From positions 2,666,001-2,730,000 of the forward strand of contig JANCIK010000007.1 in assembly GCA_028532985.1 (NCBI GenBank): a DNA stretch of 64,000 nt, given 5' to 3'. This DNA comes from Stropharia rugosoannulata (taxonomy: Eukaryota > Basidiomycota > Agaricomycetes > Agaricales > Strophariaceae). Under the pieces are notes generated by a model. That model saw only the letters and a program-made list of their open reading frames with translations, ran no database searches and was not told where the DNA came from. Positions 17,935-55,195 of this stretch are shown here, piece by piece (the first letter of the stretch is position 1; every line of letters starts with the position of its first letter). A program made the position numbers and the translations under genes.

Positions 17935-18749
17935 CTATGCAGCTCGCGTCCTGTTGCGCAGGAGGTGAAGACCAGAAAACAGGATGATAGAGAGCGTAAC
18001 CGCCAGGCTGACAAAAGCAGGGTGCGCAACATAGGACATCGCGCTGCCACTACACATCGCACAGGTCCACCCTAGCAATCAGAGCAGCCTCAGTATGAAT
18101 ATATCTGCTCTAAACCGAGATCAACTCACCTGAAGCAAGCGGCGTATACGGCGCAGGGGTATAGAGCGCAAATTGCAGGCCGCTGTATGGCACCAGATAT
18201 CCTCCCTTCCTAACTGCATCTGGTCCCCGTTCATCCCAGATGTTGAGCGTGTACATGTCGGGCGCCAGCGGCTTGTTGGGGTTGTTGGTCTGGTACGCGT
18301 AGAGGTCCCACACGACCTCGGTCTGCGTAGCGGGTATAATTCCGTCTGTCGGCCCAACTGCGTATGTATTTCCGTTTCGACAGACGGCGGAGAGCGTCAG
18401 GTGGGTCGGCATCGCGAGAACCGATGTCATGTTCCATCCAAATGTGATAGCTTGCCCCGGGCCAATTTTAAAATAAGATGTAGCCGTTTGTTGGGGTTTG
18501 GTCATCGTGATTCCCCCAGCCGCCGCAGTCATCGGAATAGGAACATAGCTGGAGGAAGACGAGGAAGCGCTTGTCTGTGGAGCGTTTGTAGCCATGTTTC
18601 GTAGGAGTCTGCTGGCGAAGGCGCTGGGTGCGTTTGGGAACACAATGGCGGCGACCCTGGCGACCCCGACCTATTATGGAAGCGTATTACATAATCCAAT
18701 CAATGATATACCGTGAGAACCTCATGGAATGTACTTACACCGCGGACAT
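17935..18749 (-). CDS. DUF7137-type secreted/membrane protein
   Basis: Fungal family of unknown function with an all-beta domain and a C-terminal anchor. Exons 18749-18741, 18670-18130 and 18071-17935 give 228 residues. The hydrophobic VGVARVAAIVFPNAPSAFA fits a signal peptide. A Ser-rich linker follows, then ITFGWNMTSVL, YTLNIWDERG and YSGLQFALYTPAPYTPLASG. The last exon adds WTCAMCSG, with a Cys pair, and a TM helix (SLAVTLSIILFSGLHLL) before basic residues. The proposed first exon codes only Met-Ser-Ala and lies inside the terminal repeat of the large transposon; its splice donor spans the insertion boundary. An alternative start is the internal ATG that begins MATNAPQ, which would lose the signal peptide. 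Confidence 0.72.
18735..18737. repeat. Target site duplication TTA, left copy
   Basis: TTA directly precedes the CAC terminus of the large element and is repeated after the GTG terminus at 55193-55195. Three-base duplications are typical of CACTA/EnSpm insertions. Confidence 0.6.
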
Positions 18750-18790
18750 CTAGGTGTCATGTCGCCAACTGAATTGTCATGTCATGTTGT
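18738..18790 (+). repeat. Left terminal inverted repeat of the giant element
   Basis: Begins CACCGCGGACATCTAGGTGT. It matches the reverse complement of 55140-55192 with about three mismatches. TGTCATG units continue to about 18,830. Confidence 0.8.
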
Positions 18791-19357
18791 TGTCATGTAT
18801 AGTGTCATGTTAGGTGTCAAGTCTACAACTACACAAGCTGTGACCTATCCTCTCATTTTGTCACGCATTATGTTTGCATTAAGAATCTTCAAGCTTCAAG
18901 CTTCACTTCAGACATGTTAAACGGTCTAATCTGATTCAAATATTACGTAAACCATCCTGAAGACCACCAACGGTGAACCAGCGGCGAGCCGCATCTGCCG
19001 CTAAAGATAAACCGATAAGAGCTTGCATCTTATCTCAACAAGCCAGAATACTCACTCAAAGACTTGCTTTCTTGCCTTGCTCCTTCTCTGCAAGCCTTAC
19101 GTCGTCTTGCTTTCTTCAAGATATCTACGAATCACGATCGTCTCATAGAATGGCAGTAGCAAGCGCGTTTGACCAAAATATACTTAGTGGACTTTCCAGG
19201 CCACTGCGGCGGGTAGGCCCTGATGGTTGCGTTGCAAAATGTTGGTATGTAACAAGCTTTGCAGACTTATACTTACTGTAGTAACGATTCCGAAGGTATG
19301 AAATGATTATAACTTCGTTGCGACAGCAAAATAACAGATACAATACAAATTCTTGTT
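18791..19357. other. Subterminal region of the giant element
   Basis: Repeated TGTCATG/GTGTCAAG units occur to about 18,830; then nothing coding is convincing up to the first cargo gene. Confidence 0.4.
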
Positions 19358-20471
19358 TCAAGGGATCCCTATTTCCATCAAAGCTCTCTCTAACGTCAAA
19401 GGCATACCTATCCGATTTACAACATCCCGTAAACGCATCAATCCCAGTTGAATACCGTTCACGGATGCTTCTGTTATAGAGTTATCCAGGGAGTATAAGG
19501 AAGATGCCCTCTCTCGTACGTCCTCGATGTCTGAGCTTATCCCCAGTAAAGCTTGTAAAGCTCCCGCAACGTGTAAACGGGCCTGGTGCGTGCGCCCTCC
19601 TAGTTCCTGTAAACGTAACACTCGACAATGCATATTCTTTTGCATTGATTTGTTCCCGCCTAACTTCGTCCATAAGCTTTCGGTCAGCATGGCTTGATCG
19701 GCTTGAAGAAACGCCTCCTCCTGTGCTAACATGTTTTCTGCGGCTTCCAGATGTTCTTCGAGTTTATACAGATTATGCACACTGCATTCTACTTCCGAAA
19801 AGACGCGATCCATGCTAGACGATATGAATAAGACTCGATCTACAAGGACTTGTTTTGCTGCGGAGTCTGTGGTACGCATTTGAACAGATTCGCCGCGGAA
19901 ATGTCCAACGGTAAGTAAAATATCACCGTTGACTGCCAACATCCTAATCCATTAATGATTTTTTGTATCACGGAACATAAAGATATACTCACTTGTTAGC
20001 AGTCTCGCTGGCATGACTAGCCAGCTTCTGCAACTCTCTGCCAGTTTTTCTTGCATCGTAAAAAAGCTTGAACATAAGAATTGCCAGACCATCCTGAGTC
20101 TTGAAGCAGCCGGCCTTACTGGTGACGATTTCCTGGAGGTCTGAAGCAGCTGATTCTACATTTTTCACTTCTAGAGAAATACTGAATCCCCTGGCAGCTG
20201 ATTCCAACGTAGAATCAGGGAATAATCCTCTGAAAGCAAATCTATATGAATTGGGCCATTGCGACTCGGAACCAGCAGGAATGGGGGGTGCAACAGGATG
20301 GAAATATGATGTCTTCATCGCGGTGGAGACGATATGAGTAGGGTACCCACACAGGAAAACAGCCGTAAAGACGGTGATGGGGATCGCGAGGCTTAACCAG
20401 ACCAGCTTAATTTCTCCAGAACTGGACGTGTAACAAAATGGGGCAAGGAGCAATCGGAAGCCTGCTTTCAT
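19358..20471 (-). CDS. Membrane protein of unknown function, possible cargo
   Basis: Two exons (20471-19993 and 19943-19358) give 354 residues. I do not recognise the family. An N-terminal hydrophobic segment (LVWLSLAIPITVFTAVFLCG) is a signal anchor or TM helix. The rest is mostly helical and hydrophilic with Leu/Glu heptads around residues 200 to 300, suggesting a coiled coil, and no catalytic motif is visible. The exon join restores Lys-Met-Leu-Ala-Val, and the frame is intact. It sits between the left terminus and the transposase gene, in opposite orientation to the latter. It may be cargo or a passenger host gene. Confidence 0.65.
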
Positions 20472-21395: not shown

Positions 21396-24300
21396 ATGGC
21401 AAACGCTCCAAAATCTCTTAAAAGAGTGATATGCGCATGCGCGAAGTGCCGTACGGAAAACGTCATCGATGCGTTTGGTCAACTCGTAACAGGAAAATAT
21501 GTCCCTGTTTCCACGAGAAGGTATCACCTCAGAAAGGATCCGAGTCAACCGGCTGCTACGGTTCGAAGGCAAGATGTAAGCTTTTACTCCCAAATCTATG
21601 TATACACCGATTGCTGATGCTCAGTTCTTGGCCGAACATCGGGTAGTAACATTAGTGCCACCAGCTGAGCCTGAGTGCGAGGAAGGTCCACCTCTTCCCG
21701 GCCCAGGTAAATCGGTCGAAGGCGGCTCGGTCAATAACTCTGCCGTCGCGGCCGTAGTTACTAACTTTGCGATTGAAGACTCATTGGAGGATACTAACGG
21801 TAAGGTCTTATTAGACGTCACTTAGTGTTCTTTACAACTAATCTTCATTGATTTTGAACAGGAATTGGCACTATCAAGAACTTGATACACATCCTTGCAT
21901 GCTGCTTAGCGTCTTGGCTCCATCTTACATGTGGCCTTAGCTGTGCTTCGTCTTCAAAGGTTTTAAGCGTGTTAAACATCATTGTCCAGCTCGCAATAAA
22001 GCTGGGACACGTGTTTTCAATTCTTATCCATGGAAAATTGAGTCGGTAAGTTTGAGGTCGCTCTTGTTAAAGAGAAACATTGTCTTAATAGTTGGTATAA
22101 TAGCGCTACTATTGCGAAAATCTCGTTTCGCCTCCCGGGAGATGTTCGCACTGCTATGTCTGCTCTTGATCTCGAACCTCAAATAAAACGATCCGTTTGC
22201 TGTCCAAAGTGTTTCACTCGCTATAGTCTGAATGATTTGCCTCTCGTGTGCCCTTACAAGGAAACACAAAGATCAAGACCATGTAATGAACAGCTTCAGG
22301 TCAAGCGTGCTACGCAGAGCGGTATCCATCTTCTCCCCCGCAGGCTATACTCTACTCAGGACTTTGCTTCCTGGCTTGAATATTTTCTGTCAAAGCCAGA
22401 TACCGAAGATCTCATTGAGGCATCTTACAATCACATCCCAAACCCCAGAACCATGACATCGATCTATGATAGCCCTGCCTGGCATAGTCTAGGAGATAAT
22501 GGCACCTTTTCTTCCACCAGAGGCAACCTTACATTCAGTTACTACATTGACTGGTTCAATCCTTTCTACAACAAAACGGCAGGAAAAACGGTATCGTGCG
22601 GAGCTATCATGATGTTTTGTTTGAACCTTCCCTTTGATCAGCAGCATCTTCCGGAAAATACATTCTTTGCCGGGATTACTCCCCCTCCTAAAGAGCCAAC
22701 GGTTACAACAATCACACACCTGGCCGATCCGATTATTGACGATCTCAAGCCATGGTGGGAAGGGAGAATTGTTAAGACCTACAGACACCCCAACGGAATT
22801 TGGACACGGGTAGGAGTACTTGCCAGGATAGGAGACTTAGCGGCCATGAAAAAAGCAATGGGCTTCGCAGGAACCGCTTCGAAGGCGCACTTCTGTTCAT
22901 TCTGTAAGCTTTTGGCAGTTAATAAGGATGATCTTAACTATCATCTATGGGAATCACGCACTGGTCCTGAAGTTCTGGCCGCTGCTACCGAGTGGAAGAA
23001 CGCTGATACAAAGGTCAAAAGGAAGGAACTGTTCAACACACATGGTGTTCGCTGGTCATCGCTTCATGCCCTGCCCTACAGAGATCCTGTTCAGCACACC
23101 ATGCTAGGGATAATGCATAATTGGCTCGAAGGCATTTTGCAGTACCATGCGCGCGTTTTCTGGGGCATAGGCACTCCTCCGACTAAAGGGGAAATCAAGG
23201 ATATCAAGGATAGCTTGGATCAAAAACTTGCCAATGATGATGGCGCCGTGCGAGGTGGCCAGGAGACAAGCAACGAGTTGATCCGCACTGCTTCACAAGC
23301 AACCGCTTTAACATTTTCCGACGGAACCATTTCACAAGAAGAAATGGATGCGCTGTACGAAGAGAGCAGGCAGTTCAACGATGCACCATCACATTCAGGC
23401 TCTTACTTCCGGCTTCATACTCATGGTTCTATGGTGCTAGATGATAATGAAAGCTCGGGCGGCGAGGACGACGGAGATTTTGTTCCTTGTGAATATAGCG
23501 ACTCAGACCCTGATTCCGATGAAGAAATTGACGAAGACGACGATGAAAAATGGCTAACAGGATGTTTGTTTTCCGAAGACGAGCTAACTGACATTCGAAC
23601 TTGTCTGGCCGAGGCTGTCATTCCAAGCTGGATAGGAAGGCCACCCGCAAATTTTGGGTCTAAATTGCATGGTAAATTGAAGGCTGATCATTGGTTTACC
23701 CTCTTCACGATCTTTATGCCGCTGATCCTGCCGGAATTATGGAGTTCCACTCAAATGTCCAATTCGCAACGTCGACGTAACAAACTTCTCTTAGACAACT
23801 TCTACTATCTCGTTACATGTACCAACATTGTATGCACCTATTCAGTTCCAGATTCTGCTCCCGCTGTCTACCAGGATTACTATGTGAAATATCGACAATC
23901 CGCACAATCACTTTTTCCAGGCAGACGTCCTACTCCTAATCAGCATTACGCTATGCATAACACGCAGTTGATGCGATTCTGGGGTCCTTTAATGCATCTA
24001 GGTGAATTTTCAGGTGAACGACATAATGGCAATCTACAGGACATCAACACAAACAACCATTTGTGTGGGTACTAAACGAACTTCTGTCATGTACGTTGCT
24101 AACGTCAATGTATACCTACATAGGGGAGTTAGACTATACCATGCTCCGGCAAATGTGCCGCCGTGGTCGCTTAATGGGTTATCTCAGGGGTATGATTGCT
24201 ATAAGGCCTAGTTCAGACCTCGTGACAAAGGGCATAAATATTCTTCTCGGTAAACCTATCGAGAAACAGGACCCTAGCGGCGCCGGATTGAAGATGATTC

Positions 24301-24845
24301 CAGAGAATATATACCGATCCCTTCTTCTTTACTGTAATACCCATGGACCAGTACAAGTGCGACACGCCCAAGACCTACCTCATCCCAATAGCGCGCTGAT
24401 CCTTCCTAGAGCAGCCATTCCCCTCTTCCATATTTCACAAAAGGGGCGCCGCTATACAACATATGATTTACACCCAGGCAACAGCGCATTATCGTTTCAG
24501 CTGCCACACGGAAATGTTGACAGAGCGGATTCTGGTTATATTCAGTCAATGTGGAAGTTTGATAATCTATATGGTGACGGCTTCGGTACTCGTACTTTTT
24601 TTGTTATTTCACAGCACAGATGCTTATCGGGAGCTGACCTTCGCCGGGGTCCCTATGTCAGTCGACCTGGATTCCTGGCGAAGATTGTGTACTCAGAACG
24701 AACGTTTGATGCATCATCTTTGCTTATAATCGAGGCAAAGCACATTGTGGGACATGTTGCACTCTATCCTCGACCTTCTGGCACATACAGCATCAGTAAC
24801 ACTACGACTGTTGTCATTAATAGTTTACATAGGTATAGAAATTAG
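21396..24845 (+). CDS. Plavaka-type (CACTA-like) transposase
   Basis: Catalyses cut-and-paste movement of a CACTA-superfamily transposon. Five exons (21396-21575, 21625-21799, 21862-22045, 22104-24064, 24124-24845) give 1,073 residues in one frame. The N-terminus has the Cys-x-x-Cys and short basic head (CACAKCRTENV, then STRRYHLRKD) usual in Plavaka proteins. Candidate DDE residues lie in DWFNPF, in GDLAAMKKAMGFAG (followed by HFCSFC), and in FSGERHNG. Further family landmarks are PYRDPVQHTMLGIMHNWLEG and, after the last intron, ELDYTMLRQMCRRGRL. An acidic stretch (residues about 600 to 635) is probably a loop. All introns have standard borders, so the gene looks intact and possibly active. 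The DDE assignment is by analogy. Confidence 0.85.
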
Positions 24846-25271
24846 GGATTGATTCGGAGTTGTTGGGCAAAGTTTAATTACATACAGATATGACTCAAAT
24901 GATGCACTAATCTAATCCGTCGTGTGAAGTGCGCGAGAGTAGATGTAGGCTACAAAATATTCGGCAATCATCCACATTAAGCCGCGTAGTAGCAACACGC
25001 TCTGCGCAAGCCAGGACTATCTCATATCCGCACGGGTGATGGAAGTCAGAGAAAGGATATTTATTGTACATGACGCTATGGACTCGAGCTAATTACAACA
25101 TTCAAGTTGGAGCAGATGGCTTTATTCCCATTGCACGACTGGATGCAACTTGGGCTTTTCTTGATGAGGTTGATACAAAGTCATCAAGAATTCGCCTTCA
25201 ACGCAATTACACCCTCAAGGAAGAATGGGAAGAACTTTTTTGACAAAATACTCGGTTAGTGTCGTGGCGCT
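24846..25271. other. No gene seen
   Basis: Between the transposase stop and the end of the next, opposite gene. I looked here for a second inverted terminus of a smaller element and found none. Confidence 0.4.
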
Positions 25272-26998
25272 TCAGAGTGGTAAATGGACCCTACAATCAT
25301 GAGTCCTGCCATTCACTGAGTCGGGCTCGAAATCGTCTCCGCCATTCACTGAGTTTTGCTCAGAATCGTCCCTGCCATCCAGGTTCGAGGACTCTGAGTC
25401 ATCGTCAACATCGATTTCACCTTCAGAACCAACTTCCATCCTCTAGAGCAAACCGTATAATGAGTACCACCCCAGTTATTATTAGCTTTACAAAACTTAC
25501 TTCGGTAATGATAATTGCAAAGCTATAGCCCCTCCCAAGTATACCAAGGGAAACTGCCAAACGACTAATTCCATTTGAGACGCCTCCAGCCTACAATTTA
25601 GTACATGAGCAGATGTAGATGAGCACAGTTGATGCTGCTTACCATAATCGTCTTTCCTGTGACAAGAATAATGTAAATGCCCTGGCAATCAATTCAAAAA
25701 AGCATTGTGATAGGACTTACCAGTGTTTCCAACAACGTCTTCAAGCGGCCTGATGTTCAACTGGACATCATGCGAGCTTGGGCAGGTGCTGCGTGTGATA
25801 TCCCGTAAGAGTGTGATGCTCAACATTTCCCTGGCTGTGTCATCGTTGTAGCGCTCAATCACGGCAAGGGAGAAACGGTCAAAGAATGCAATGGTTTCTA
25901 TAGGTCCGATGGGTACCCCGTGATGGCATCTTGTAATTTTGCCAATAAACATTTGATTAGCAACGGAGTATATCTCAGCCTCCCCGTACTTAGTTAACCC
26001 AACAAAGGACCGTTTATCAGACGCTAGACTGGCTGCGGATCTGAAGAAAATGTGAGCAACTGATCTTGTATCAAACCAGGTGCATCTCACAGCACCCTGC
26101 ATGTCGGAATCCTCATAAGGGAAATAATCCTATGTGCGTTCAGGGCAGAAAATGTTCTGAAGCTAAGATCAGTAATCTGCATATAAATTTGGATGTTGAG
26201 TGCTGAGTACTTACATACACGCCCTTGGAAAGATGGCAAGGAAAGTGTTATCGTCTTCTGTATACTCTATCAACAACGGTGTTTCACCCTTGCTGAGGAG
26301 ATCATCTCCTATTAAATTCGAGCATGAAATTATTATATGCTCTAGGGAGCCTCCTTAAATCCAGAGTTATTTGGGAAATGATAAGTAAGGATGAAAACAC
26401 GGACCCCATACATCGCAAATAGTAAAGAGTCGGTTATGATCGAAGAAGCCAGTAATCTCACGGCCATTATGACTAGCGCAAGTCAATGTCAGAGGCTCGG
26501 CAAGCTTGTAGTCCAAGTCTCCAAAGCGCGCATAGTCTGATAGTTTTACTTCTCCTGTGACAGTCCCCTATATCTCAGAGATCAGAAACACTGTCATATC
26601 ACTGCGGATAGTACGACAACAGCAGGCTCCAACTTACCCTTCCGTTAACAATACTCGTGGCTTGAATCAAACCCGTGGTATGAGCAATGACGAGGCTGCC
26701 GAATCGGTAGGGGTGCCATGTCAAAGATGCAATGGTGCCGTATAGGTTTGGAGTGTGTGAGACCGGTGGCTTATAGCATGCAATGCGAATCCACTCCTCG
26801 TCTTCGTCTCTTTCGTGCTGTAAGCTAAAAATCTGTTTCCGAGTCAGTGAAAGAAAGGTCTTTATCTATACATAGTCATACCTCTACCTCTTGCTCATAT
26901 GTCGCTGAGGCAATTAGCTTTCCATCAGGCGAAAAAGTTAAGGCTTTCAGCGTATGGTGGGGATTAAGTCTTATGTATGATGTAGCTGGGGATTCCAT
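25272..26998 (-). CDS. WD40-like beta-propeller protein, model partly uncertain
   Basis: Early exons are clear: 26998-26882, 26832-26638, 26567-26412 and one starting at 26339. The N-terminus reads HTLKALTFSPDGKLIASATY, a WD40-type blade, followed by a second blade with SLTWHPYRFGSLVIAH. Further beta-rich segments occupy 26102-25690. The last exon encodes an acidic tail with two related units (GRDDSEQNSVNG, GGDDFEPDSVNG) ending in TGA. I could not join the exon ending near 26215 to the one starting near 26129 in a consistent phase, so the gene may be damaged or contain a missed exon. No repeat-specific partner can be named. It lies within the giant element. Confidence 0.55.
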
Positions 26999-29615
26999 GG
27001 AGAAGAGCTGCCTGGGCCCTGGGCATACAATGACGAGCTTGTATTTGTTGACTGATCAAGTATCAGCTCTGCTTTTTTATAGAATCTGAGGGAGATTATA
27101 TATAAGGAATAACACTTTGTGTGGGGCAAGATGAAAGCGCTCTAGTGCATATTATTTTGTTATTTTGTTACGCTCAATAAAGTAGCATTGCATTATTGCA
27201 ACGGCAGGCAGGCTGTGAACGAAAAACGGTGTTGTGGAGTCAGTGAGTTCTTCAGACATGATGACATGCGTGGATAAGCAAACAAGAAAATTGGTTATCG
27301 AAGAAAATTGTCGTCAATCCTTGTTCAATCCTGCAATCAGCTCTAACTATACTTGATTAAATTAACCTGGTTGAACTACTTACCAGCTGGATTAAATGAT
27401 AGTGTATGATCCGTTCAAGTTTGTCTCTCACATGCTTCCATTTGACCGCGTCGGTGACGAGATAGCTTCGTCAAGTTGTTGTTCCTATGATCAATGAGAA
27501 TCGGTCAACGGCAGTCAAGGCTATTATAATTCACATATACATGAGATTTAACTCCATTTGTAACACGATATAGTTGGAATGTTTGATTGCACGAATGCCT
27601 CAATATCAACTCTGTTTATTCCACCCTTCAATTGATATTTGGTCGCCTCGGAATATTCGGTCGCGAAATAGTCCCGTCAAAATATCAACGTGGTGGAGTT
27701 ACTTGCGCTCTCGTTTTACAGGTTTCAGTGTCCAATCGGGTCCAACGCACTCTGCCATAAATTTGTATGCTGGGGTGGGCTGGGAGAGGACCCTGAGAAA
27801 CATGACATTATGTATCCTAAAACGCTTCAACCTGTGCCATAATCGATGACGTTGCAGTAGATCAAACTTAGCCGTCCATATAAACACATTTCACGCCTAT
27901 TAGGCAGAAACTGTGGTACAAAGTGGCATTGATTTGTTATTTGTTGCTCGACTGGAACCGCTTAAGACGGTTGCAATATAGTTATAGGGCACTCAGGCTT
28001 CTTCTATCAGTCACTGGAGTGCTCAGTTCGTTCTTGCTCTAGGGCCTTGGGTTTCCTAGTTATAATATGCTTGGAGCCTTTCCACTAGACATACGAGCGA
28101 TAGGTTTCCATCCCTTTATCTTATACCGTCCATTCTCCTGGAAGCGGAACTAGACCAGGTTGATCATGAGCGCGTGGCCGGAGCGGCGCTCAGCAGATAA
28201 GGGGAGCGCATGTTGATATGTGTTTGAAGTAGTATGTATATACGACTTTTTACGACTTTACTCCATGTTACTTGGCCCAATTAAATAGAAATTGAATTTC
28301 CCGGTAGCAAACCCTTAGCCTTGATGCAATTTCTTTGGCTATATGCGGTTAAGTCAAGGCTAAGTGAGGAATAGATTTGTTTCGCTTCATCTGTCACTGC
28401 ATATTGACACCTACAACCACCTGACGTGTACATCTGATGAGAGGCCGTGACCAAATAAATATCAGCAAACTTCACCCCTGCGTAACGCTGCTGATAGTGG
28501 CGGTGTTGATTTGCCTAACATAGCCATTCTAAGATTTATATCCAAAAGAACTATCTACAGCGGATTCTATAATATTGATAGATCATTACAAAGTGTGTTA
28601 CACATCAGATGTTGAATAAGCCATTTCTATTCCATGTAAGTGAGAGGTAGTTCTATTCAGCAGTGAGGTCTACATGGACCTACAATACATTACATCATCG
28701 TAGATAAGATAATCCATGTGGGTATGATAACCTGTTGTCAAAAACGCACAGCACTTTGACGGCACCCATCACACATGGAAATGTTACTTGAACGGGACTC
28801 AGTAGCAACGTAGCAACGCTGTATGCTATCTCAGCGAGCTCCTCTGTTCCATGCAGTCGAATTTACGAGTTTGGACATGAGCTGGTCATAACTTTTGCCC
28901 TCGATTCACATTTAAAGTGAGGCTTAAAGAATCCCAGGTAAGTTTCGGTTTGATGACCTAAACATTTTATATAATATTTATATCACTGTTATCATTTAAT
29001 TGGTGCCGCCAGTGGTGTTAGGCCTTGACGCTTACTATCAATCCTGTTAAATGTATGGTAATATTCGTGGACCAGGAGAGTATTTAGCAATTTTAAAGCA
29101 GCACGGATCCTGGGTCTTTCTGTATCCTGGCGGTTAATTTTAGCTGCTATAACGGCAAAATGACTGATGTTTCACAGACTGTGTAGGTCTGTGTAATCAG
29201 TGGCTGGGCCCTCAATTGGGTAAGGTACGAAGTTAGAGCAAAATCTCACTGGCAGAACGAGAACCTCTGTAACCTAATTAAACCCTAAACCAGTGGTGAG
29301 TCTATTTATTTTCTGACTCCACTGCATGAATCGGTTATGTTTGGTTGTGCAATCAAACTTCCCTGGTACTACGGTAAGAATAGAGCAACGTCTCACTCAA
29401 AGGTGATCGAAATATGGCATAAAGAGGCGCAGGAAGCTCATCTATTCAAACTGTTAGGAAAGGTACTGAATTTAGCTTGATGCTTTTTACAAAGAATAAG
29501 CAAAAATCGACTGGATTCTGTACGTAATGACAGCATTTCGTTGTACATATACAGCTCCTACGCCTTTACTGGAACAACATTCCATTCTCACTCCCAGATC
29601 CACATATTTGACCAA
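26999..29615. other. AT-rich, no gene recognised
   Basis: A 2.6-kb stretch with only short frames on either strand. It may hold decayed transposon sequence, but I see no intact repeat ends, RNA gene or protein motif. Confidence 0.4.
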
Positions 29616-39359: not shown

Positions 39360-39458
39360 TGTATCATATTGGAGCCCACCGCGAGGGGTTTGCTTCCGAT
39401 ACACTGGACTTCAGCCAAAGTCTCCTCCAGTTCGCATTTTTATTTACATTAATTACAT

Positions 39459-42582: not shown

Positions 42583-42593
42583 TCACCCCCCCT

Positions 42594-45500
42594 TCAAGAC
42601 ACGGCGTCCCGGCGTGGCAAGGTGATCCACTCGCCACCATTGACTGTTCTATACCGTCCAGGCTCAATTGCCAGGGAGCCAATAACCCGCGGAGCATCAG
42701 GATGTTCCCGGTAGAACTTGGCCACCAGCTGAGGTGAGAAGACGTCTTCCGCATGCTCCCAGGAGTTCTCCTCATACCCATACCCCTTCCATTTGACGAG
42801 GAACTGAAGCCTGTTTCGATGGATGCGGCTGTTGAGGATGGCCTCAACCTCGTACTCCAGCTCGTTATCCACCAGCTCAGGTTCCGGAGGAGGCGCTGCA
42901 ATGCGGCCCGGAATAGGGTCAGGGAGACAGGGCGTGAGCTTGACAACAGGGAAGACAGGGTGGAGACGCTTGAGAGAAACTGGGAGTTTGAGACGGTAGG
43001 CATGAGATCCAACAGCAGCCTCGACCGTATACGGGCCCAGGAGACGGTGGGACAACTTCTTGGAGGGACGGGAGGTACGGATGTCTGACGCATCCAGGTA
43101 GACCTTGTCACCTGGTTTGTACACCGGGAGGGGTCACGTCGCCGGTTGTAGAAGCGAGCCATGTCATCTTTGGCCTTAGCCAGCGCTGACTTGGCTTCTT
43201 CCAATGTACTAGCCATCCGCTCCTTGAACTCATTCACAGTCTCCAGAGACGATGGAGCTTCATGAGGTTCAAAGCCCATCCGAGGGTGTCGTCCAGTGTC
43301 GAGCATGAAAGGTGTATGCTGGGTGGAGGCGTGGACATGGTTGTTGTACTGGAACTCGGCCAGAGGCAAGAGATCCTCCCAGTCGTCCTGACGCTCATTC
43401 ACGAAGGTCCGCAAGTACTGTTCCAACTCCATGTTAACGCGCTCCGTCTGACCATCAGATTGGGGTGGTAGGCAGTGGACGCCGCCAGGCGGATTCCCAA
43501 CAACCGGTAAAGCTCTCTAGTGAACTCGGCAATGAACTGAGGCCCACGATCCGAGAGGACTATCCGAGGAGACCATGGTGGCGCCAGACATAACGGAGAT
43601 AGAGCCGGGCGCTCCAAGTGCACTAACAGTGGTAGTCGTTGGGATAAAGTGACCGCGCTTGGAGACTGAGTCTATCACGTTCATGATGGCGTCATGTCCA
43701 TTGGAGAGAGGGAGTTCCACGATGAAGTCCACACTGATAACCGCCCAGCGCTGCTCAGGGATAGGGAGAGGATGAAGCTCACCAACCGGGCGGTGACGCT
43801 GGATCTTGGTGCGAATACAGAGGTCACAGGTCTTGCAGTACTGTCCAATGTACCGAGACATCTGGGGCCACCAGTAGTTGCGCGATACTAACTCCAGTGT
43901 CTTCCAACGTCCAGCATGACCAGCCACCTTGGTGTCGTGGTGTAAGGAGACAATACGGCGGCGGAGATCAGGGTCGTTGGGGACGTAGATCTTATCCCGG
44001 AAGCTGAGGAGACCATCTTGCATCCTCCACTCCGAGGATCGCACAGAACGGGCCCCACTGCTCAACAAACCCTTTGCTGCCTTCGCCACCATCTCCTCAT
44101 GTTTCCCCTGACGGTTTCCCTTCCGGATCTCGTGCAACAAGTCCTTCTCCTCGCCCACCAGCTCCACCGCCTCGAGCGCCCGGATAGCAAAGAAGGCGGG
44201 CTTGAGGAGTGTCATCTCAGCATTATCCCCAGCGCCGTCTCCATGATCAGCTCGTCGCGAGAGGGCATCAGGTTTCCCCATGGAACGGCCAGGGCGGTGG
44301 CGGAGCGTGAAGTCGAGCGGGAGAGGTAGAGGGACCAGCGGGCCTGTCTGCGGTTAAGCTTTTTGGCCGTCATGAAGTACTCCAGATTCTTGTGGTCTGT
44401 CCAGATCTCCACCGGATGAGCTGCACCTTCAAGGAAGTGTCTCCACTCCTCCAGGGCTCGAATGACCGCTAGCATCTCCTTGTCATGGATCTCGTAGTTA
44501 CGCTGTACGGGACTGAGGCTCTTGGAGTAATAGGCGACAGGGTGCCATTTCCCATCTTCACGCGACTGCTGAGAGAGCACAGCACCAGTAGCAAAGTCCG
44601 AGGAGTCTGCCTCAACGCGGTAGGGCAGGTCGTCACGAGGAAAGCCAGGATGGGAGCCGAAGTCACCGCAGTACGCAACATATCAAAGGCGGCCTGAGCA
44701 TCAGAGGACCACGACCAGGAGTATCCTTACGCGTCAGCTCAAAAGCGGACGGGCATGGTGAGAGAAGTCCTCGATGAAGCGGCGATAGAAGTTGACGAAG
44801 CCCAAGAAGCTCTGTACCTCCTTGCGTGACTTGGGAACCGGCCACTCTGCTACACCTGCAATCTTGACCGGGTCCATCTCCACCTGACCTTCCGAGATGA
44901 TGAGCCCCAGATACTCAATGCGACGCTTCTCAAACTCGCACTTCTCCGGCTTGAGATACAACCGGTGGAGTCGCAGACGCTCCATGACCAGACATGTCAC
45001 CCGACGATGTTCCTCGAGGGTCTTGGTGTAGATGAGGATATCGTCAAGGTAGACACAGACAATGCCCTCGAAAATGAGGTCGTTGAATATCTCGTTCATC
45101 ATGGTCTGGAACGTTGCAGGCGAGTTGGTGAGACCAAAGAACATAACCGTGAGCTCGAACAGACCGCGGTTTGTTCGGAACGCTGCCTTCCACTCATCTC
45201 CCTCCTTGATGCGCACATTGTTGTACCCCCACCGCACGTCAAGCTTGGTGAAGTAGCTGGCACCACGGAGTTGTTGGATGAGGTCAGAGACGAGAGGAAG
45301 CGGGTAGCGGTTCTTGATGGTCATGGCGTTCAGCACACGGTAGTCCTGGATGAGGCGCAATGACCCGTCCTTCTTCTTGATAAAGAAGACAGGAGACGCC
45401 ATCGGAGACTTAGAGGGACGAATACGGCCAGTGGCGAGGTTCTCCTGTAAGAACGCATCTAGTTCCTTCTGCTCAGGAAGCGTCATAGGATACACCTTGC

Positions 45501-47764
45501 AGTTGCTGGGTGTTGCTCCGAGTTCCAGTTCAATGGCGTGATCCCAAGGTCGACATTCTGGCAAGACATCAAAGGACTCCTTTGAGAAGACGTCCTTGAA
45601 GTCATGCAAATGGTTAGGAACGTCGTCGCGGAAGTCCTTCTGTCCAGAGTTGGACGCAAAGGCTTCTGCGAGCCGCTGGGACACGGTGGAGGTAGACTGA
45701 ATGAACTGGGACTCGGGGTAACGACGCCGCAAACAGCCGGTTGTCGTCGTCCTCCCAGACAGAGTGGAGGGCCTCTAGTAAGCTGCAAGCGTCCTTAGGA
45801 GCAGGCAGCGGTTCAACTTCCTCCAACTCCATCTCGGGACTTCGTCGTCATCGTCCTCCAGCTCCATAAGGAGGGGCATAGGGCCCTGGGTACAGGTCTC
45901 TACCGCTCTGATCTCTGCGCGAAGCTTAGACTTCTCCGCACGGATCTCATCACGGCACGTGGAGCACCGGCGTGGGCACCGTGACATCTTCACCTCTCCA
46001 GTGATCCAGTCCACTTCAGGGTTGTGTTCTCGGCCAAGTGTGGCCCAGAATCATATCCTGACGTCCGAGGTTGGTGACGGGAAGACGGCGCGTTCAGTGT
46101 GGTCCTTGTAGCGAAGGATGAGCTCCACAATGGACGTGATAGAGCCGTCTTCATTGAGTGAACCGTCAACGTTGTGGACTGGAATGGGGACCAAGAGAGG
46201 CGTTCCGTCAGCTTGTGCTGCTGGACGTACTGCGACTGATGAAGCACTGGTCAGCGCCGCAGTCAACCAGGGGCCTGAGGCGAAAACGCTGGCCCGTGTC
46301 CGTGGTCTCGATCTCCACTGGAAGGTGAAGGGAGTTGGGACTCGGAGTAGCGGCAATGGTGTAATGAGAGGAAGTGCGCGCTCCCAGCGGCGAGCACGGG
46401 CCTGGATGCGTAACGCAGCAATGGAGTGAGACTTGGGAGCAGGGGATTTAGGCGTGTCAGGCAGTCGTGAAGGTAGGTCTGGAACAGAAATAGATTCGCA
46501 GGGCTCTACCGACAGTACACTATAACGACTGCCACGCGCGAACGAGGGCACGCCGCTCACTCGTCGCGATGCACAAAATCCTCCTCCTCCTGGACATCAT
46601 CCTCCTTCCTTTCATCCACCGGCGGAATAGCATCCTCCTGGCCCTCCGCAGCGCATGTGCTCGAGTTGCTCCTGAAGCTCCGTGAGAGTCATGTGGCGAA
46701 TGTCGAAAGCCCGGGACAATCTCGAGAGATGTGACCAGGTTTACCACAGCGATAGCAGGTAGGGGGTGTCTTCCCAGCACTACGAGCACGATCAATGTCC
46801 ATGGGAGCGCCCAGAGGAAGAGCAGGGGCAGCAGGCGCGCGAGGGGCAGGAATAATGGGCAGAGAAGCACGTGGAACGGTTGCAGGGAGGCGGATGAACG
46901 CGAAGCCGCGGGGGGACCAGAAGGCGTAGGGTGTGCTGCACGGAAGAGCTGGTTGGTCTCGCGGTTGCGAGCAACCTCCACGGCGCGTTCATACCATCCC
47001 TGAAGCGAGGCGGGTCGACTCTCCGAGGGCAGGTTGGCGACTTGACTGTCCAGCGAAGGGGATAGACCACGACGGAACTTCATAATCAACGCCTTCTCGT
47101 CAATGTACCCAGACTTGAGGACAAGGTCCTTGAAGGCGTCGACGTATTCTTCAGCAGAGCGGCGGCCTTGATGTTAGGAGGTCCTCTCGAGGCGAGCTGA
47201 GCGTGCTCGGCCTCGTGCTGCTCGCAAAAATCGCGAATGAACACGGCTTCAAAGGCGTCCCAGCTACGCAGATTGAAGTCGGAAAATCCAGACATCATGG
47301 CGCGTTTCGAGAACTGGGCGGCGCGGCCCTCGCTCATGAAAGAAAGGGCCCAAAGAACTCGAGAGAATTCGTCAGGAAACTGCGAGCCAGCCAGGGCGAA
47401 ATAAATGGTGCAAGAATTAAGAAAAGAGCGCCCTTTTTCGCGTGAACCATCAAATGGTTTGGGAGACGCAGGTTTGAGGCGAGAGACAGTGGGAACTGCA
47501 GCTGCAGGAGCCGTGTGGGCGTCGAGATGAGGAGGGGATCACGAGGCGCAGGAGGGGCGGGTGCAGGTGCAGAATGCGAGCTGGCAAGTGTAGTCTCGAG
47601 GAGGGTGCGGATAGTGTGAAGGGAGCTCGAAACGTCGGCCAATTCCTTCCGAAAAATCGCGTTATTGTGGTCGACGTACTCCAGAAGCGACGTGAGGGTG
47701 AGGGCGGGTCTGGACAAGGTATTTCCGCCTCAGGGCTCGCAGAGGCGTCTGTATCCATCGACAT
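42594..47764 (-). pseudogene. Gag-pol remnants of the chromovirus, multiple frame breaks
   Basis: Successive frames carry the usual parts of the polyprotein. Gag is at 47764-46700, with a perfect knuckle CYRCGKPGHISRDC (46757-46716). A retropepsin region at 46400-46000 contains LVDCGA and MILGHTWLREHNPEVDW. Reverse transcriptase is at 45732-44734 with [10 protein letters not shown]. RNase H is at 44580-44280 with [10 protein letters not shown]. Integrase is at 44100-43200 with an HHCC finger (HHDTKVAGHAG, CKTCDLC), SVDFIVELP and LSDRGPQF. The chromodomain is at 42870-42720 with FLVKWKGYGYEENSWE. At least six switches of frame separate these, so no full polyprotein can be made. Described only; not restored. 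Confidence 0.9.
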
Positions 47765-47848
47765 CGAAGCAGGGAGGGTGTTGGAGTCCTAGGCCGTTTC
47801 CGAAGGCAGTAGGCGTCCAAAACTGGTCCCAGGCAGAGGCTTTTGTAC

Positions 47849-48311
47849 TGTAAGGGCGACTCTGCGCAGTGTCGAGCTCACACGAGACCTAGCAGAGGGA
47901 TTCCGAAGTTTATTAAGCTGTAAACTATAAATACAATAGAAGCGCACCTAGCAGAGGGATTCCGAAGACAAAAGCCTAAGGAAACCCGCTGCTGGGCGCC
48001 ACAGTACATAATAGAAGCGTTGATTGATGCGTGAGAATAAACTATACAGTTGATCCGCCACAAGAAGCCACCACATCACGTCCTCATGTGATGTGCATCA
48101 TACATCATATGCACAACACATGATGGACGTGTCCCATCAGTACGTCACATGATGTAAACCGCGCGCGCCTGTGCACAGTACACACTGCAGAGCATAGTGT
48201 ACACTGCACGGGCTGCGCGCGGCGTAAGAAATAAAAATAAAATAAAATAAAAGAAAGTGAAGGAAGACGAAATGAATAAAAATAAAGGGTGACGCACAGC
48301 GTCCCCTTACA
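47849..48311 (-). repeat. 5' LTR of the chromovirus
   Basis: 463 bp, matching the 3' LTR. It is followed at 48312-48316 by the duplicated GTTCC. Confidence 0.9.
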
Positions 48312-48316
48312 GTTCC

Positions 48317-48419
48317 GGCTCGCAATTGTGAGTTGTTTTGGGGTTTGGCTGGAAGCCGTGTGAAGCGCCCTCGCATTCAGTGCTTTCAGTGTGTGTTTGT
48401 GGTGTGGTTTCCGCGCCCA
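48317..48419 (+). repeat. Right LTR of the gag-only element, second part
   Basis: Last 103 bp of the interrupted LTR. Together with 41759-42119 it makes 464 bp, exactly the length of the left LTR. Confidence 0.85.
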
Positions 48420-48423
48420 TAGC

Positions 48424-48871
48424 ACGCACGAGCGTATCAGCGTGCACTAGCTAGTACAAACAACGCCCGGGATAGCCTTTGCAAGGTGCTCATAAGACAT
48501 GGGTAGAGTGAACACCACTGACGAATGCTGCTTACCAGGCAATGCAGAAGTAAAGCGCGAACGAAGAAAGGTAGAGGACTGGGGAAAGGCCCCGAGCAGC
48601 TGTTGCAGCGCACAATTAGGCCTAGCGTTTAAACCACAAAGTTTACTTACTGGTGATGGTGAGTATAACCAACAGCAAAAAGCCCCCCACACCAGCAATA
48701 ACCGCAAGGTAGTCGTCCATCCAAAGGTAGAGCTGGACGCATATATGAATGCGAAGGCCGAATGAGAATAGGGAGACAAAATGAAACAAAAAGAGGGTGA
48801 ACAGAACGCCTGAAGATAATGAACAGTCATAGTCCAGCTTAAAAGTAATGCTTACCCATAGAAAGAGCCAT
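48424..48871 (-). pseudogene. 5' part of the split rhodopsin-like gene
   Basis: From ATG at 48871, a very short first exon (Met-Ala-Leu-Ser-Met) joins one reading GVLFTLFLFHFVSLFSFGLR and then LYLWMDDYLAVIAGVGGFLL. The Trp-x-Asp-Asp-Tyr/Trp motif followed by a helix is the hallmark of the first third of fungal rhodopsin-domain proteins. A third exon gives LSPVLYLSSFALYFCIA. The reading then stops at the LTR boundary at 48420. The remaining helices lie on the far side of the nested retroelements at 38895. Confidence 0.55.
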
Positions 48872-51800
48872 CGGGTAGGAGAAATGTAGAGGTAAACAAA
48901 CTTTGCGCTTGGTGATGATGGTAAGATAAAGGAAAACTTATGTGACAGTTGGGTTTAAATACTAGATCAATATGTCCGGCATTTGAGTCTGAGTGAATTG
49001 ATGCAGATTGCCTATTGGTAGAGATACCTTGTCAGAGCCGAGAAAACATAGACAAATCTGCAAAACAAGGAAATAAGTTAGTGAGAAGTCGTGGAGAAGA
49101 CATCCGGCCATTTACAAAGCCCACAACCGTTGAAATTGTGACAAAAGCTGCTGTATTGGTATCTAGAGAAGCGTTACAGGTCACTGGAGGAAGAAAACGG
49201 CGAACTAATCTGTTCGCATTCCATAAACATCTCTGAATATGAGACGCTGAAAACCTTCATAACAGCCCAATTGTAAATGATTATTTCGTCGTTGGTATCT
49301 ATATGTTTCGTGAGGCGCTCAGTTGCAAGAAGAAAGACGACCTACGTATTTCTAACATGCAATTCATTTGCATAGCCGCCACATATGGGAACCACTTTAC
49401 GTTCCACAGACGCGGCTGTACAGCATACTAGCATGCATTTGAGGGAGGACATCAGGCATTGACGTCTTCGCACTTATAATAACAGGCTAAAACTTGAGAG
49501 ACAGATGGGTAGATGGATGTATCATGTGGTAGGTTTGGCTAGAGAATGCTTGAAGGCCATTCAAAGGAAATATTTGCAACAAAATGAACAGAAGATAGTC
49601 AAAGCAAATGCTTCAAATACTCTTGTTGCAAACGAGGACTTCCGTGTACATGTCATGCAAGGTGGTGGATAGGGGTCTGATGAACAGGATGCTTTGAGAT
49701 GAACGTGATGGATGCAACAACGCCGTCAAGAAATGAGAGGGAGCCGGTAGTTTCGAACGACGGCTTGACAATGTTTCCGAGAGGTACTGAAGCTTTTTCC
49801 GGGGTCGTTGGGGGAGGAGAAAAAGAACAAGACGAATGTAGCAATATCGTTGACAGGTGAGAGAGAGCTGTGGATTTCAACGATAGTTTAGCGAAACTTC
49901 ATAAGGCGTTGGGAGGTTGTGCTAGGGCTTGAGGAAGGGGGCAGACCCATGGGTGTATGCAGCAGTGATAAATGTAACAAACCCAGTTTAATACATAGCC
50001 TAGCCAGCAGGAAAGACCAGATCATGAAGAAGTACGAAGCAAGCTAGAAGAATTGTTTCGATACCTCAAGTTCCAAGTGCTACCTTCCGGAAGCCATTCT
50101 CCAACAGGATACGCGTAGGAAGCCAACGTTTCAACTGCGACAACAGCAGTTAACTGCACATTCGAATTGGGAAGTTCGTTTTGTAGTTCGTTCATGAAAG
50201 CACCAAACCAAGTAGAGAGACAAAGACAACTGAGGATACACATTCATGTGTCCATTTTCCGCTGATAAACAGGGTCTGTTTCATATAAGGTGGGGCGAAA
50301 GAAAGGGAAGGTTGGGGCGAGTGGGCCGCAGTTTATAGGCGGTGGGCAGGTTGTTGCATCATGTGATTCTACAAGCAAGCTTATCCGGACAGTGTAACTT
50401 CGTTGCTAAACCGTAGGCTAAGGCCCTCTTTTTCATTGCCTTTTGAACGACGTGTTCAATACGCATGGTGGCTCATTCACAGATTGGGTAAGTGTGCCGA
50501 CAGATACATTCAATGCTTTTTCTTAGATCTACCACAAGTGAACGAAACTAGCAAATATCAAACTGAAGACAAAGAGAATTCAGCATCCTCAAAACGATAT
50601 CCCAAACATCGAAGGCTTACTAGCGAAGACCCTGCTACTGTTTAAACGTGCGTGGTACTCATCATGAACAACTTGGTCTTGCTGACATACCACCAACATA
50701 TCGACACTTTCTCCCTGTATTACCATATGTATAGGTACCTGTACGTTGCTTTCTTGGGTTATCTTGTCCAACAGTGCTGAACGTTAGCAGCCACCTCTAT
50801 TCGAGGCAAGGAACTCTACCGAGGCAAAGCCACCCGACGTCGCCTCATTCAACCAACTACTTTTTTATGTCATCATCTGACGCAAGTTGAACGAACCCTT
50901 GCCCGCCACTCTACAACATCGTCAGACGCATCTCATTGTGGGAGAACACACATCCTCACTCACCGTATTATGAAAACTTCAGAAGGTTGGGTCGAGGCGG
51001 TTGAACCAAGGAAACGGGTTCGCGCGACGATACACAAAGTAAGTTGTTAGCCTTTTGACCACCATGTACGAACTTACTTAATTGAGGAATGACACAGCGT
51101 TAAGAGCACCGTCTTCTGTCCTCTGGTTTGTCAGGTCAAGACTGACACCGCAAGATTGCAGTTTCCCTTCTCCGTATCTTCGATGGACTGTCAACACTCC
51201 GTCCTTTTCTTTATACGCCGCCGAACTGAATCACCTAGCGTTTTAACATGCACAAATGCCTAATTTCCATGAGCAGCTACAAGTGATCAAGCGGCAATGC
51301 CACTCCAGAAAGACCTGAATGAAGTAGAATCGCAGGCCTTCGATGCCGGTGTCCCAAGGTAGTTCATCCTATCCTGCGCATGTTGATATTTCTACGCTGA
51401 TGGTTGATTATTTAGCACCGAACCCTGCTTCAATCGCTGTGTATCCCGTAACCAACTTCTGCTCTCTATTCGACCCAGAACCCGACGATTTAAGGTCAAC
51501 CGTTAAACGGAACAGATGTATCACGCTGGAAGCCACCGTGGACGGCCTGCATCGTGTCTCTGTCGAGTAAAATTGGTCCCCAACTGGCAGTATCATTCCA
51601 TACCTAGAAAGTTATATTATTTCAAGTCTTCCCCCTTCAATTTTCCTCCTACCTTCGTTATTGGTGGTTGCCATTGTCCTTTCCCCATGCCTCGTTATCG
51701 CCTCTCCATAAGGTCATCAGAAAAAGGCACCTCTTAATGGGACCACGTTATTTGAAGAATGAGCTCTATTCACCGACAGCGGCACCAGCTCATGGGTAAC

Positions 51801-54800
51801 AACAGTATTTCCCTAGTGACGAGCGGTGGCACCAATTTCACGGGTAACGGCAGTCTTCGCCCGGTGGCGAGAATCTTCAGCGATGCTTTCTTATCATCAC
51901 TGGACGAGTTTGGGCGAATCATGGCCAACTGGAGGCTCTGGGTGCGTTCAATGAACCAGTACGAGGGTATCGGGCCTGGCCCTTCTTTGCCAATTCCCTG
52001 TCGTCTGGAGAAGGCCAAACCGCAGAGCAATTTGTTCACTTCAGTGCATGAGGGCAGCGTTTCGTTGAGGACGCACTTATCCTCTCTTCGGCAGCATCTT
52101 GTTGAGCCAGCCAAATGTTGCAAGATGTAAAGCCTGGCCACTACACTTCTGTAACGACCAGCTGGCTTAAGACGTCGCCCAGACAAATCCGTCGATGCGG
52201 TTGTCGCGACTCAAAGCCGTGGCCATCCTAACGCTGACTCGTTTTTTTGGGTCGACGACTAGATGGCGAGTGACCCAGGCGTAGGCTAGCTGAGGCTGTT
52301 GAAGTCGAAGTAGCTGCTCCTATTGCGAGGTTCATGAGCGCTCGTCCCAGCTCATTGTCCTGTTGAGATGCTCAATAGGTCAGAATCTTGTGTCGTAGTC
52401 TGTGGACCCACTCATCCCAAGCTCCTGCCTTCGCCGTGTCGGTACATCCACCTCCCCACAGTACCGATGCTGGTTATGGAATGACTAGTATGTAGCTTCT
52501 GCTTGACGTATAACCTTCGTATAACCTGCTAACGCATCTACTTATCGATTGTGCTGTTTCAAGGTGGACTTTCTGTCAACATGGACCGTTTGCGGCTTCG
52601 AAATGTCTTAACAGCATCAGGGTTCCCGGTTTCTGCTTTCATCAACGACGCTGCTTACCTTTGCTTCCAGGTTTCTATCCGATTCCGCCTTTTGCATTGG
52701 TGACATGCTCGAGGAACAACAATTCTGTGGCGATATACGTACCTAGACTCTGAATTTTGCAATTTTGCGTGTTTCTCTTCGTTATTATTCTATCCGGCGC
52801 GAACTTCTCGATTTTAATCTCGTTCAAGCTTGTTGATTGAGGCAGGTTTGAGGGAATGATGCAGTGGAGTGTCAAGTGTGGTAAGTGATAGTGGCCGTAC
52901 TATTCAAAACGACTAATTTTGCCCTCAAGACTGCCTCCCCCTTGCCTCATTTAGATGTAGCATATTTGGCACTACTGGGCTGCCCTCTTCCTTTCTGAGC
53001 AGGATAAGCCAAAGAATCATTCCTTAGTTACTTTGCAGTTATAATACTTGAATATAAGCCATTTCTTCAATCCCAACTCCACCACTCCGTCCATAACTGA
53101 ATCAGAATTGAATCTTTTATACTAAACAGGCTCAGGAATGGCGTCAAATTCGGGGAGTATGCCTTCATTCACTCTCCCCCTATATGCATTTTTCTTCTGA
53201 CAGCTATAGACGTGCTGCATTGGTCCCATTTCTTGTCCACCATGGTCACTGATTCATTGTCGATCATCACTTTACAGAATGCCCATTCCGTCACGGCAAA
53301 ACTTAAGCCTTCCGACGTTCGTTATACGGTAAGCACATTCTAAACAGTCTTCACTGTTATTCGACTCGAAATTGCTTGCAGAGGAGCTAGGTTATCCCCG
53401 GGTTGTCATCATCCCCAAGCCATCCCTTTTAACCTCTTAGGAGACCAAGCCCGCCTCTTGTAGTAACAGTGTAGAACGCCATACCTTCCCGTCTCTCGCC
53501 TTTCTGCCAGTCCGCCTCTGCAAAGTGAGTAAATTCAGTTTCTTTTCGTTCCTCCAGCGTCGCGTTGCATGATCATCGTTTTTCGTCCACCTTCAGTCCA
53601 TTCCTCTACCCTTCACTGCCGCAGAATTTACTCGTTTTCCCCATGCCTCATCATTCCCCGTCAAGCCTCCACGCGTAGACTGCGGGACATCTCTTTGATG
53701 CACCACAGACCACTCACTCGGCAAATACTAGGGAAGGGTAGTCAATGTTTGAACCGTTCACCTTGGTGCAATAGTGGCCCCAGTGTCACGTATATCCCGT
53801 CCGTTCACCGCTCACCTGTACTTGATCCAAGGTCGCCATTCCCGTCCCCTACATCCCGTCCCCGTTCTCCGATGACTGTAACAACAACTCCCGTTGTTGG
53901 CTCCACTATCACCCACTTCCGCTTCCCTCCACAGCCATCCTCCGATGCTGGTTCCACCTCCATCCATCCCTGCCGTGCCAACACGGGGCTGTATATATCG
54001 TCACATAGGTGGGCTGGCCATGAAGGCGAGCGAACACCAATGCAAACACGAAAGTCTGCACTGAGAAAATGGACTTGGACGGGATGCTTTGAACCATCTG
54101 TCAGTAATGTCCCCCTAGCCATCCCCTTCGGCCCAGGGATGAGTACATAAACGGATAGTCACAGGCGTCCATCGTTTGAGAATCGAGAAACGCCTGCAGC
54201 ATATCACCCCTGGCTTTCGGCGATATGGGAGAACTCTTGTGGACGAGCGCAGAGGGCCGTAGTATGTTGACAGGCAGTTGCATATACATGGCGCAACGTA
54301 AATTGATGTGTATTCTGGTCTCGGTTAGGACGGTACATGCGCTCTACGGGCATAATCAACGAGGTGACCCTCCCCGCCCTCTTCCACGGGCACATACACT
54401 GACTCGCAGGTTCCGGTATTTGCGGCCTCAAACTATATATTTGGGATATTCACAGTTTAGTTTAAAGTCTTGAAGCGACTGATACTTTCCGAGCTGTGCT
54501 GATGATTCACGGCTGTTGCATTTCTGTTGGACCTCTCAAGGTTGGCGATGCGTAGTAGCGTAAGTGTTCATGATAAATTCACAATTTGTAGGTGGGGCCA
54601 AGACATGCATCTCGCAAGTCTACGCTCGAAGTCTAGATAATCGTGAGATGTTGACTCAATATTCTATTTACAGTTACAGCAGCATATTGCGAGGTGCGGC
54701 TCAAAATTTCGTATATCATGCACTTGCATTGCATGCCCATGTATATTTAGTACGTACATTAATTTTTTAATCCTGGCTTGGCGTACACTAATGAATATCA

Positions 54801-55139
54801 GCAACGTTGGGATTTGACAACTCTGAAGAGTATATTTTCGAGCAACTTTCGAGTTGCTTTGTTATTGCTTTGAGTTCTTTTTGTAAAATGTTTGTTGGAC
54901 ATTCGACGTTGCAGTAGTGCATTAGATAAGACTCCTAGGTATCTAATCGTATTTTATCTACACCTCTACAATTATCTCCTTTGTTATTTAATCGTAATCT
55001 CATGATCATTGCAATATCATTAGTGTTTCACATCTTATCTAGACAATCTAGAAAGCGTGACAGTTCCAAGGCTAAGTCACATACTTATATAAGCACACTT
55101 GACGGTCAATAAGACAATCGACATGATGCCGACACGTTC
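48872..55139. other. Right arm of the giant element, no confident gene
   Basis: About 6.3 kb with several weak frames: 50403-50645, 51343-51570, 51759-52130 and 53569-54150 on plus, and 49653-49880 and 50022-50243 on minus. A spliced piece may start at 50,971 (MKTSEGWVEAVEPRKRVRAT followed by GTAAGT). None has a domain pattern, and I could not join them. The stretch from about 50.9 to 54.2 kb is more GC-balanced than its flanks and could be a decayed captured gene. No tRNA or satellite repeat seen. Confidence 0.35.
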
Positions 55140-55192
55140 GTGACTTGACGTGACAATTCAGTCGGCGACATGACACCTAGATGTCCGCGGTG
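55140..55192 (-). repeat. Right terminal inverted repeat of the giant element
   Basis: Ends ATGTCCGCGGTG and is the reverse complement of the left terminus (18738-18790) with about three mismatches. Confidence 0.8.
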
Positions 55193-55195
55193 TTA
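55193..55195. repeat. Target site duplication TTA, right copy
   Basis: Directly follows the GTG terminus and matches TTA at 18735-18737. Confidence 0.6.

Follow-up and report, generated by a model that had tools for sequence, protein, structure and literature searches.

A 64,000-bp stretch of the genome of the mushroom Stropharia rugosoannulata, called the window here, contains a transposable element that belongs to the CACTA/EnSpm (CMC) group by its termini, target duplication, motifs and predicted fold. With a probability of about 85%, we take this element to represent a lineage of giant CACTA/EnSpm-superfamily DNA transposons predicted to move by a RAG1-fold DDE transposase, with six further predicted, conserved genes that likely serve the element. 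The basis for this reading is paired ends, 3-bp duplications, a 98%-identical second copy, two diverged giant relatives, the catalytic residues, and conservation of the genes at the protein level. The window corresponds to C7:2666001-2730000 of a 48-Mb genome in 20 contigs, designated C1, C2 and so on; coordinates of the element given with no contig prefix are window positions.

Boundaries of the element and its second copy

The initial annotation proposed a 36.5-kb CACTA-type element with inverted repeats of about 50 bp, CAC...GTG ends and a TTA duplication. When the edges were inspected base by base, the element proper was placed at 18738-55192 (36,455 bp), with CACC...GGTG ends. The terminal inverted repeats, 18737-18787 and 55143-55193, are 51 nt long and 94% complementary, and TTA is found on both sides, at 18735-18737 and 55193-55195, so that the proposed ends were confirmed. 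Within the element proper, the left terminal repeat (18738-18787, plus strand) begins with CACCGCGGACATCTAGGTGTCATGTC and the right one (55143-55192, minus strand) runs to the GGTG end. The left subterminal region (18738-18987, plus strand; 250 bp) has seven TGTCA motifs in a single orientation, where 0.31 would be expected at the frequency of the interior. Nested retrotransposon DNA accounts for about 9.5 kb of the total length, which leaves about 26.9 kb for the unit; the proposed size is thus right for the insertion as it stands but not for the unit.

A 101-bp left-end probe matched four places in the genome: both window ends and two ends 28.4 kb apart on C13. The C13 copy is 28,451 bp long, lies in reversed orientation, is 98% identical to the window copy and has TGA on both sides. 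In a comparison with 38 kb of C13, homology covered 18734-38895 and 48440-55197, with 389 mismatches in 26,867 aligned bases, and the flanks of the two copies were unlike. The same interior genes lie between the same termini at both sites. A copy with the same ends in unrelated surroundings settles the extent of the unit. The expectations that the terminus would be found again elsewhere, and that copies would share their cargo, were thus borne out.

The C13 copy has 1,491 bp extra at window position 34,062, a segment that contains two open stretches, each about 110 aa long, and in which no sign of an insertion was seen. There are 35 indels between the two copies, and just two fall in listed exons, where about 12 would be expected if they were evenly spread; this expectation is hand arithmetic, the listed exons, mainly conserved parts, making up about 35% of the length. 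One exon indel is in-frame, and the other is the duplication created by the nested insertion. CpG in C13 corresponds to TpG or CpA in the window at 152 sites, and the opposite change is found at 36; C-to-T differences in non-CpG contexts are balanced between the copies (70 vs 76). From the CpG asymmetry, methylation was probably heavier, or lasted longer, in the window copy than in the C13 copy.

Giant relatives

Two diverged relatives of comparable scale were found. The first, C3a (C3:3822220-3851987; 29,768 bp), was detected via diverged ends matched by the right part of the window element; its 197-bp repeats are 97% alike and TGA is present on both sides. The second, C7b (C7:2503844-2538413; 34,570 bp), has TCA on both sides. 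All four elements have CAC...GTG inverted-repeat termini, and in 4/4 the 3-bp duplications match across the whole unit (TTA, TGA, TGA and TCA), each of the form T-N-A. Together with the C13 copy, these relatives uphold the earlier proposal of one CACTA-type element, as opposed to two short ones.

The termini of all four elements were condensed into one pattern, CACCRCGGRCA-N6-TGTCATGTC, with 20 non-N positions, two of them two-fold. Genome-wide, the exact matches are, by construction, the eight ends of the four elements. No other match was found in the genome at 0-2 mismatches, so there is no unpaired end at that level. At 3 mismatches there were 11 further places, and a control search with the reversed pattern gave 6 at up to 3 mismatches. 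TGTCA occurs 3-7 times in each of the eight 250-bp ends, compared to the same expectation of 0.31, and nearly always in one orientation; the single reverse-oriented motif is in the right end of C3a.

Partial copies were sought with the right 6.8 kb as DNA, and otherwise with the proteins of the transposase and four extra genes. At three remoter loci that have both a transposase and G4, an accessory gene described below (C3:2722522, C2:2037312 and C14:94865), no ends were found in the 4.5-4.9 kb read on one side of each, and the terminal pattern had no match near them.

The transposase

The transposase gene, T, is predicted at 21396-24845 (plus strand), with a main open frame at 22042-24072 and a C-terminal exon extending to 24845. 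The main frame contains D170-D265-E659, together with C285-x2-C288 and H635-x3-H639. In the window, C13 and C7b copies all seven of these residues are kept and the main frame is open. Structure prediction gave a RAG1/Transib-like catalytic fold. The transposase at the C14 locus has D170N and stops.

Placement in the superfamily comes from relatives, predicted fold, termini and target duplications, not from a Pfam match of the protein's own. Three paralogs in the genome that are more distant have main frames matching Transposase_21 (tnp2) at E values of 3.7e-12 to 2.3e-11. Among 42 aligned transposase sequences, eight match Transposase_21 at E<=0.01, and three match the Pfam Plavaka transposase (best E 0.0033), with no such match for the window protein. 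The initial annotation had spoken of an intact Plavaka-type transposase: the gene is indeed full, with its catalytic residues kept, but the termini do not fit Plavaka, and relatives match Transposase_21 more often, and more strongly, than they match the Plavaka family. The named relatives of the transposase among the matches listed are Agaricomycetes; no relative was found in the viral contigs scanned with the transposase. In Candolleomyces efflorescens a transposase relative (g4344) and a G4 relative (g4343) are both found, and the contigs given for the two have the same length.

Accessory genes

Conserved coding blocks corresponding to G1-G3, G5 and G6 emerged when the reading frames of the window were set against portions of C3a and C7b, and G4 came from a search of its own; gene models were built from these blocks. 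G1 (19358-20471, minus strand; two predicted exons, about 354 aa) has no known domain and is conserved in C7b and C3a. G2 (25215-27051, minus strand), merged from two adjacent predictions, would encode a WD40-like protein, its best Pfam match, PF24817 at E 5.6e-4, being below the cut-off. G3 (30222-31931, plus strand) is predicted to encode a Pumilio (PUF) repeat protein (PF00806, E 9.1e-17). G4 (34328-36425, minus strand) is predicted to encode a 628-aa protein whose database relatives have precomputed PF26792, and G5 (36794-37348, plus strand) a small protein conserved in C3a. G6, conserved in relatives and transcribed from right to left, is cut by the nested block into a first part (48447-49111, minus strand) and a second part (38254-38895, minus strand), the latter hydrophobic and membrane-like by eye; it is uninterrupted in C13. 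No convincing Pfam match was found for G1, G4, G5 or G6, and a structure prediction for G4 from four homologs (predicted local distance difference test score, pLDDT, 39.7) was not used.

G4 was found at seven places, all of them at the seven near-complete-transposase loci of this clade, and a search of this genome found none elsewhere. The distance from G4 to the transposase is about 5-7 kb at C3:2722522 and C2:2037312, and about 25 kb at C14. G3 is present in the four complete elements, with one host-type Pumilio gene at C4:2324596-2325689. G2 is in all four elements, and weakly similar sequences lie on C6, C1 and C3; G1 is likewise in all four, with weak matches on C3 and C5; and G5 was seen in C3a. 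T and G1 lie head to head in the window element, C3a and C7b. Order and strand otherwise vary, the T-G1 pair and G2 being flipped relative to G4 between elements. Thus the initial annotation was right that extra genes are present; those at 38896-48439, however, are retrotransposon genes, and the conserved extra genes all lie outside that block. Nor are they the unrelated collection that was proposed, since a Pumilio gene, a WD40-like gene and four unknowns recur in the relatives.

Between subfamilies, the ratio of nonsynonymous to synonymous substitution rates (dN/dS) was computable for five extra genes and ranged from 0.15 to 0.32: G1 0.31-0.32, G2 0.24-0.25, G3 0.30-0.32, G6 0.29-0.32, and G4 0.15 (C3a only). 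The transposase gave 0.18, and the comparison for G5 (C3a only) was saturated. Most pairs had a synonymous rate (dS) of about 1.1-1.3, and in the comparisons with C3a it reached 1.7 for G4 and G6; such values are near saturation. Between the window and C13 copies, dN/dS was 0.27 for G2 and 0.38 for G3, both from few changes.

In repeats 4, 5 and 6 of G3, a glutamine of the host Pumilio is replaced by K, K and R, respectively, and the replacements are identical in the window element, C3a and C7b, as judged by eye; repeat 7 retains E. The altered glutamine is the residue that closes the PUF recognition motif. From its sequence, G3 may prefer other RNAs or interact with a different partner. A database search with G3, for which the query was an imperfect model with part of repeats 2-3 missing, gave a single match, 29% identical, to a Pumilio protein of canonical type in Mycena floridula, and thus no element-type PUF outside this species.

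The weak G2 relatives include C6:2901092-2901856, C1:2316025-2316228 and C1:2322248-2322436, which lie about 6-30 kb from more distant transposase matches (31-34%). Because of this proximity, other CACTA clades of this genome may also be giant. A predicted 288-aa frame at 32465-33493 (minus strand) had no match in the compared parts of C3a and C7b and may be due to chance.

Nested retrotransposons and other features

The block at 38896-48439, missing from the C13 copy, consists of nested long terminal repeat (LTR) retrotransposons and has a 4-bp direct repeat, GCGT, at its edges. The outer LTR element has a gag-like open reading frame, recognized by eye, at 39453-41381. Into its second LTR is inserted a Ty3-like retrotransposon (42119-48311, minus strand) with RVT_1, an integrase zinc domain and a GTTCC duplication. 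The two 464-bp LTRs of this inner element are 100% identical, so its insertion is likely recent. A Ty3-like retrotransposon of the same family lies about 2.2 kb outside the C13 element. To the left of the window element, a 330-nt inverted repeat (5822-6151 and 6336-6665; 97% complementary, spacer 184 nt) has the look of a foldback element.

Alternative explanations

The alternative that survives best, which we consider unlikely, is a giant transposon with Starship-like, host-adaptive passenger cargo, captured from the host and shuffled between copies. At least one gene does look captured, given the host-type PUF relative in the same genome, and gene order differs between the subfamilies. Opposing it, the same gene set is found in three subfamilies, its dS being of the same order for the transposase as for the extra genes, so that the set was present in their ancestor and has been kept, and G4 was not found apart from transposase loci in this genome.

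Less probable again is that the element is a fossil, and that segmental duplication or gene conversion, not transposition, produced the copies on C7 and C13. The nested retrotransposons and CpG decay suggest that the window copy has been in place for some time, and C3a has a mutated catalytic residue. Yet the homology to C13 stops precisely where the terminal repeats do, and the 3-bp duplication differs between the two sites, which argues against duplication or conversion, and three of the elements combine an open main transposase frame with complete catalytic residues. Finally, it is very improbable that the outer ends belong to short ordinary CACTA elements framing unrelated host DNA, as a composite or by chance pairing: CACTA elements are usually a few kb, and CNIRT6, from a basidiomycete, is given as about 7.5 kb (PMC12810828), but C13 carries the same interior between the same ends, C3a and C7b carry the same genes between their own ends, the terminal-pattern search left no end unpaired at 0-2 mismatches, and the 3-bp duplications match across the whole unit in all four.

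Several observations weigh against the giant CACTA lineage that we favor. The left 1-kb flank is single-copy, having no second copy in the genome, and therefore no empty allele is readable in this genome; with no empty site or strain polymorphism seen, we infer movement from the copies. The termini are CACCG or CACCA (CACCR), not CACTA, and because of this the element is not filed under the plant-type CACTA/TAGTG pentamer subgroup. Neither the window transposase nor its C2 relative matches a Pfam family at E<=1. The C3a transposase has E659K and a stop; from this and the C14 lesions, some relatives would likely depend on transposase supplied elsewhere. At C1:3753933, a transposase fragment of 59 residues that belongs to this clade (56%) lacks an adjacent G4. 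The gene models are predictions without transcripts. In the window-C13 comparison, dN/dS is 0.62 for G1, 0.67 for G4, 0.68 for the transposase and 1.06 for G6, and G5 has 5 nonsynonymous and 0 synonymous changes; with so few changes, recent constraint is not shown for G1, G4, G5, G6 or the transposase.

Comparison with known elements

Giant gene-carrying fungal elements are known mainly as Starships, whose captain is a tyrosine recombinase (DUF3435). A captain search found no match in this genome, and control genomes were equally silent. The S. rugosoannulata elements resemble Starships in being giant gene-carrying fungal mobile elements, but differ in that they have a DDE transposase, end in terminal inverted repeats and share a gene set that recurs among them. 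Starships have also been described in a basidiomycete, Tremella fuciformis (PMC13066641).

In one description of the CMC group, the second D and the E of the DDE triad enclose C(2)C and H(3-4)H (PMC12730594). The elements studied here resemble CACTA/EnSpm elements in their CAC...GTG termini, 3-bp duplications, DDE residues, C(2)C and H(3)H motifs, RAG1/Transib-like predicted fold and short subterminal repeats. They differ in being about 27-35 kb long with at least seven genes, where one or two open reading frames are usual, and in having PUF and WD40-like genes. Assignment to Plavaka was rejected, since the termini differ from those of both lineages as described, PlavakaA/B having TGT..ACA or CATCA..TGATG; nor do the 3-bp duplications agree with KDZ, whose duplications are longer, 7 bp being given for Kyakuja (both PMC12730594).

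The EnSpm elements that a review of giant transposons (PMC6431247, citing Kojima et al. 2013) picks out as enlarged, those of the red alga Chondrus crispus, are 16-20 kb with 4-5 open reading frames; they are likewise oversized and have more reading frames than usual. The present element is clearly longer and is fungal. EnSpm and Plavaka elements bearing TET/JBP genes are described from rusts and mushrooms, the rust EnSpm elements having CAC..GTG ends and 3-bp duplications (PMC12730594). These too are fungal CMC-clade transposons carrying an accessory gene, whereas those of the present elements encode PUF, WD40-like and unknown proteins. Among the longer open reading frames and gene models scanned, there was no TET/JBP domain and no Pfam match to the hallmarks given for Polinton/Maverick elements, a protein-primed DNA polymerase B and a retroviral-like integrase (PMC6431247). 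CNIRT6 of Cryptococcus, also a basidiomycete CACTA element with CAC-type ends, is far smaller, with one annotated transposase gene and CACTG ends (PMC12810828).

A literature search of titles and abstracts, which did not take in subscription papers, preprints outside PMC, or Repbase, found no description of a fungal CACTA element that is as large as this one or that carries a Pumilio gene. The initial annotation's claim of a new type of fungal giant transposon was overstated, in that the superfamily itself is already known; the element differs from it in size and gene set.

Proposed mechanism and significance

In the mechanism that we propose, the transposase, possibly aided by the G4 protein that occurs alongside it, would bind the terminal repeat and the subterminal TGTCA motifs, pair both ends, and cut at CAC/GTG in a cut-and-paste reaction. 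RAG1 and Transib cut at their ends in a comparable manner. The excised element would then be joined to T-N-A targets cut with a stagger of 3 bp. In plant CACTA elements, the second open reading frame is described as supporting excision and transposition in specific families (PMC4158355); on this analogy, G4 would be the leading candidate for a helper that binds the ends. The PUF and WD40-like proteins may be the element's own regulators, acting in post-transcriptional control or in relief from silencing, rather than host-adaptive cargo. We give an even chance to the fuller proposal of a giant, self-contained RAG1-fold CACTA lineage in mushrooms, unrelated to Starships, with at least six long-kept accessory genes and a captured, re-tuned Pumilio that regulates the element or shields it from silencing.

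Cut-and-paste DDE transposons are generally thought to be small. The presence of four complete elements, each 28-36 kb long, within a single genome would show that such lengths can be spanned by a RAG1-like CACTA system. If this is true, a transposon is able to keep a long-lived accessory gene set, and basidiomycetes have a carrier of long DNA other than Starships. What G4 and the transposon-borne Pumilio protein do would then become directly testable.
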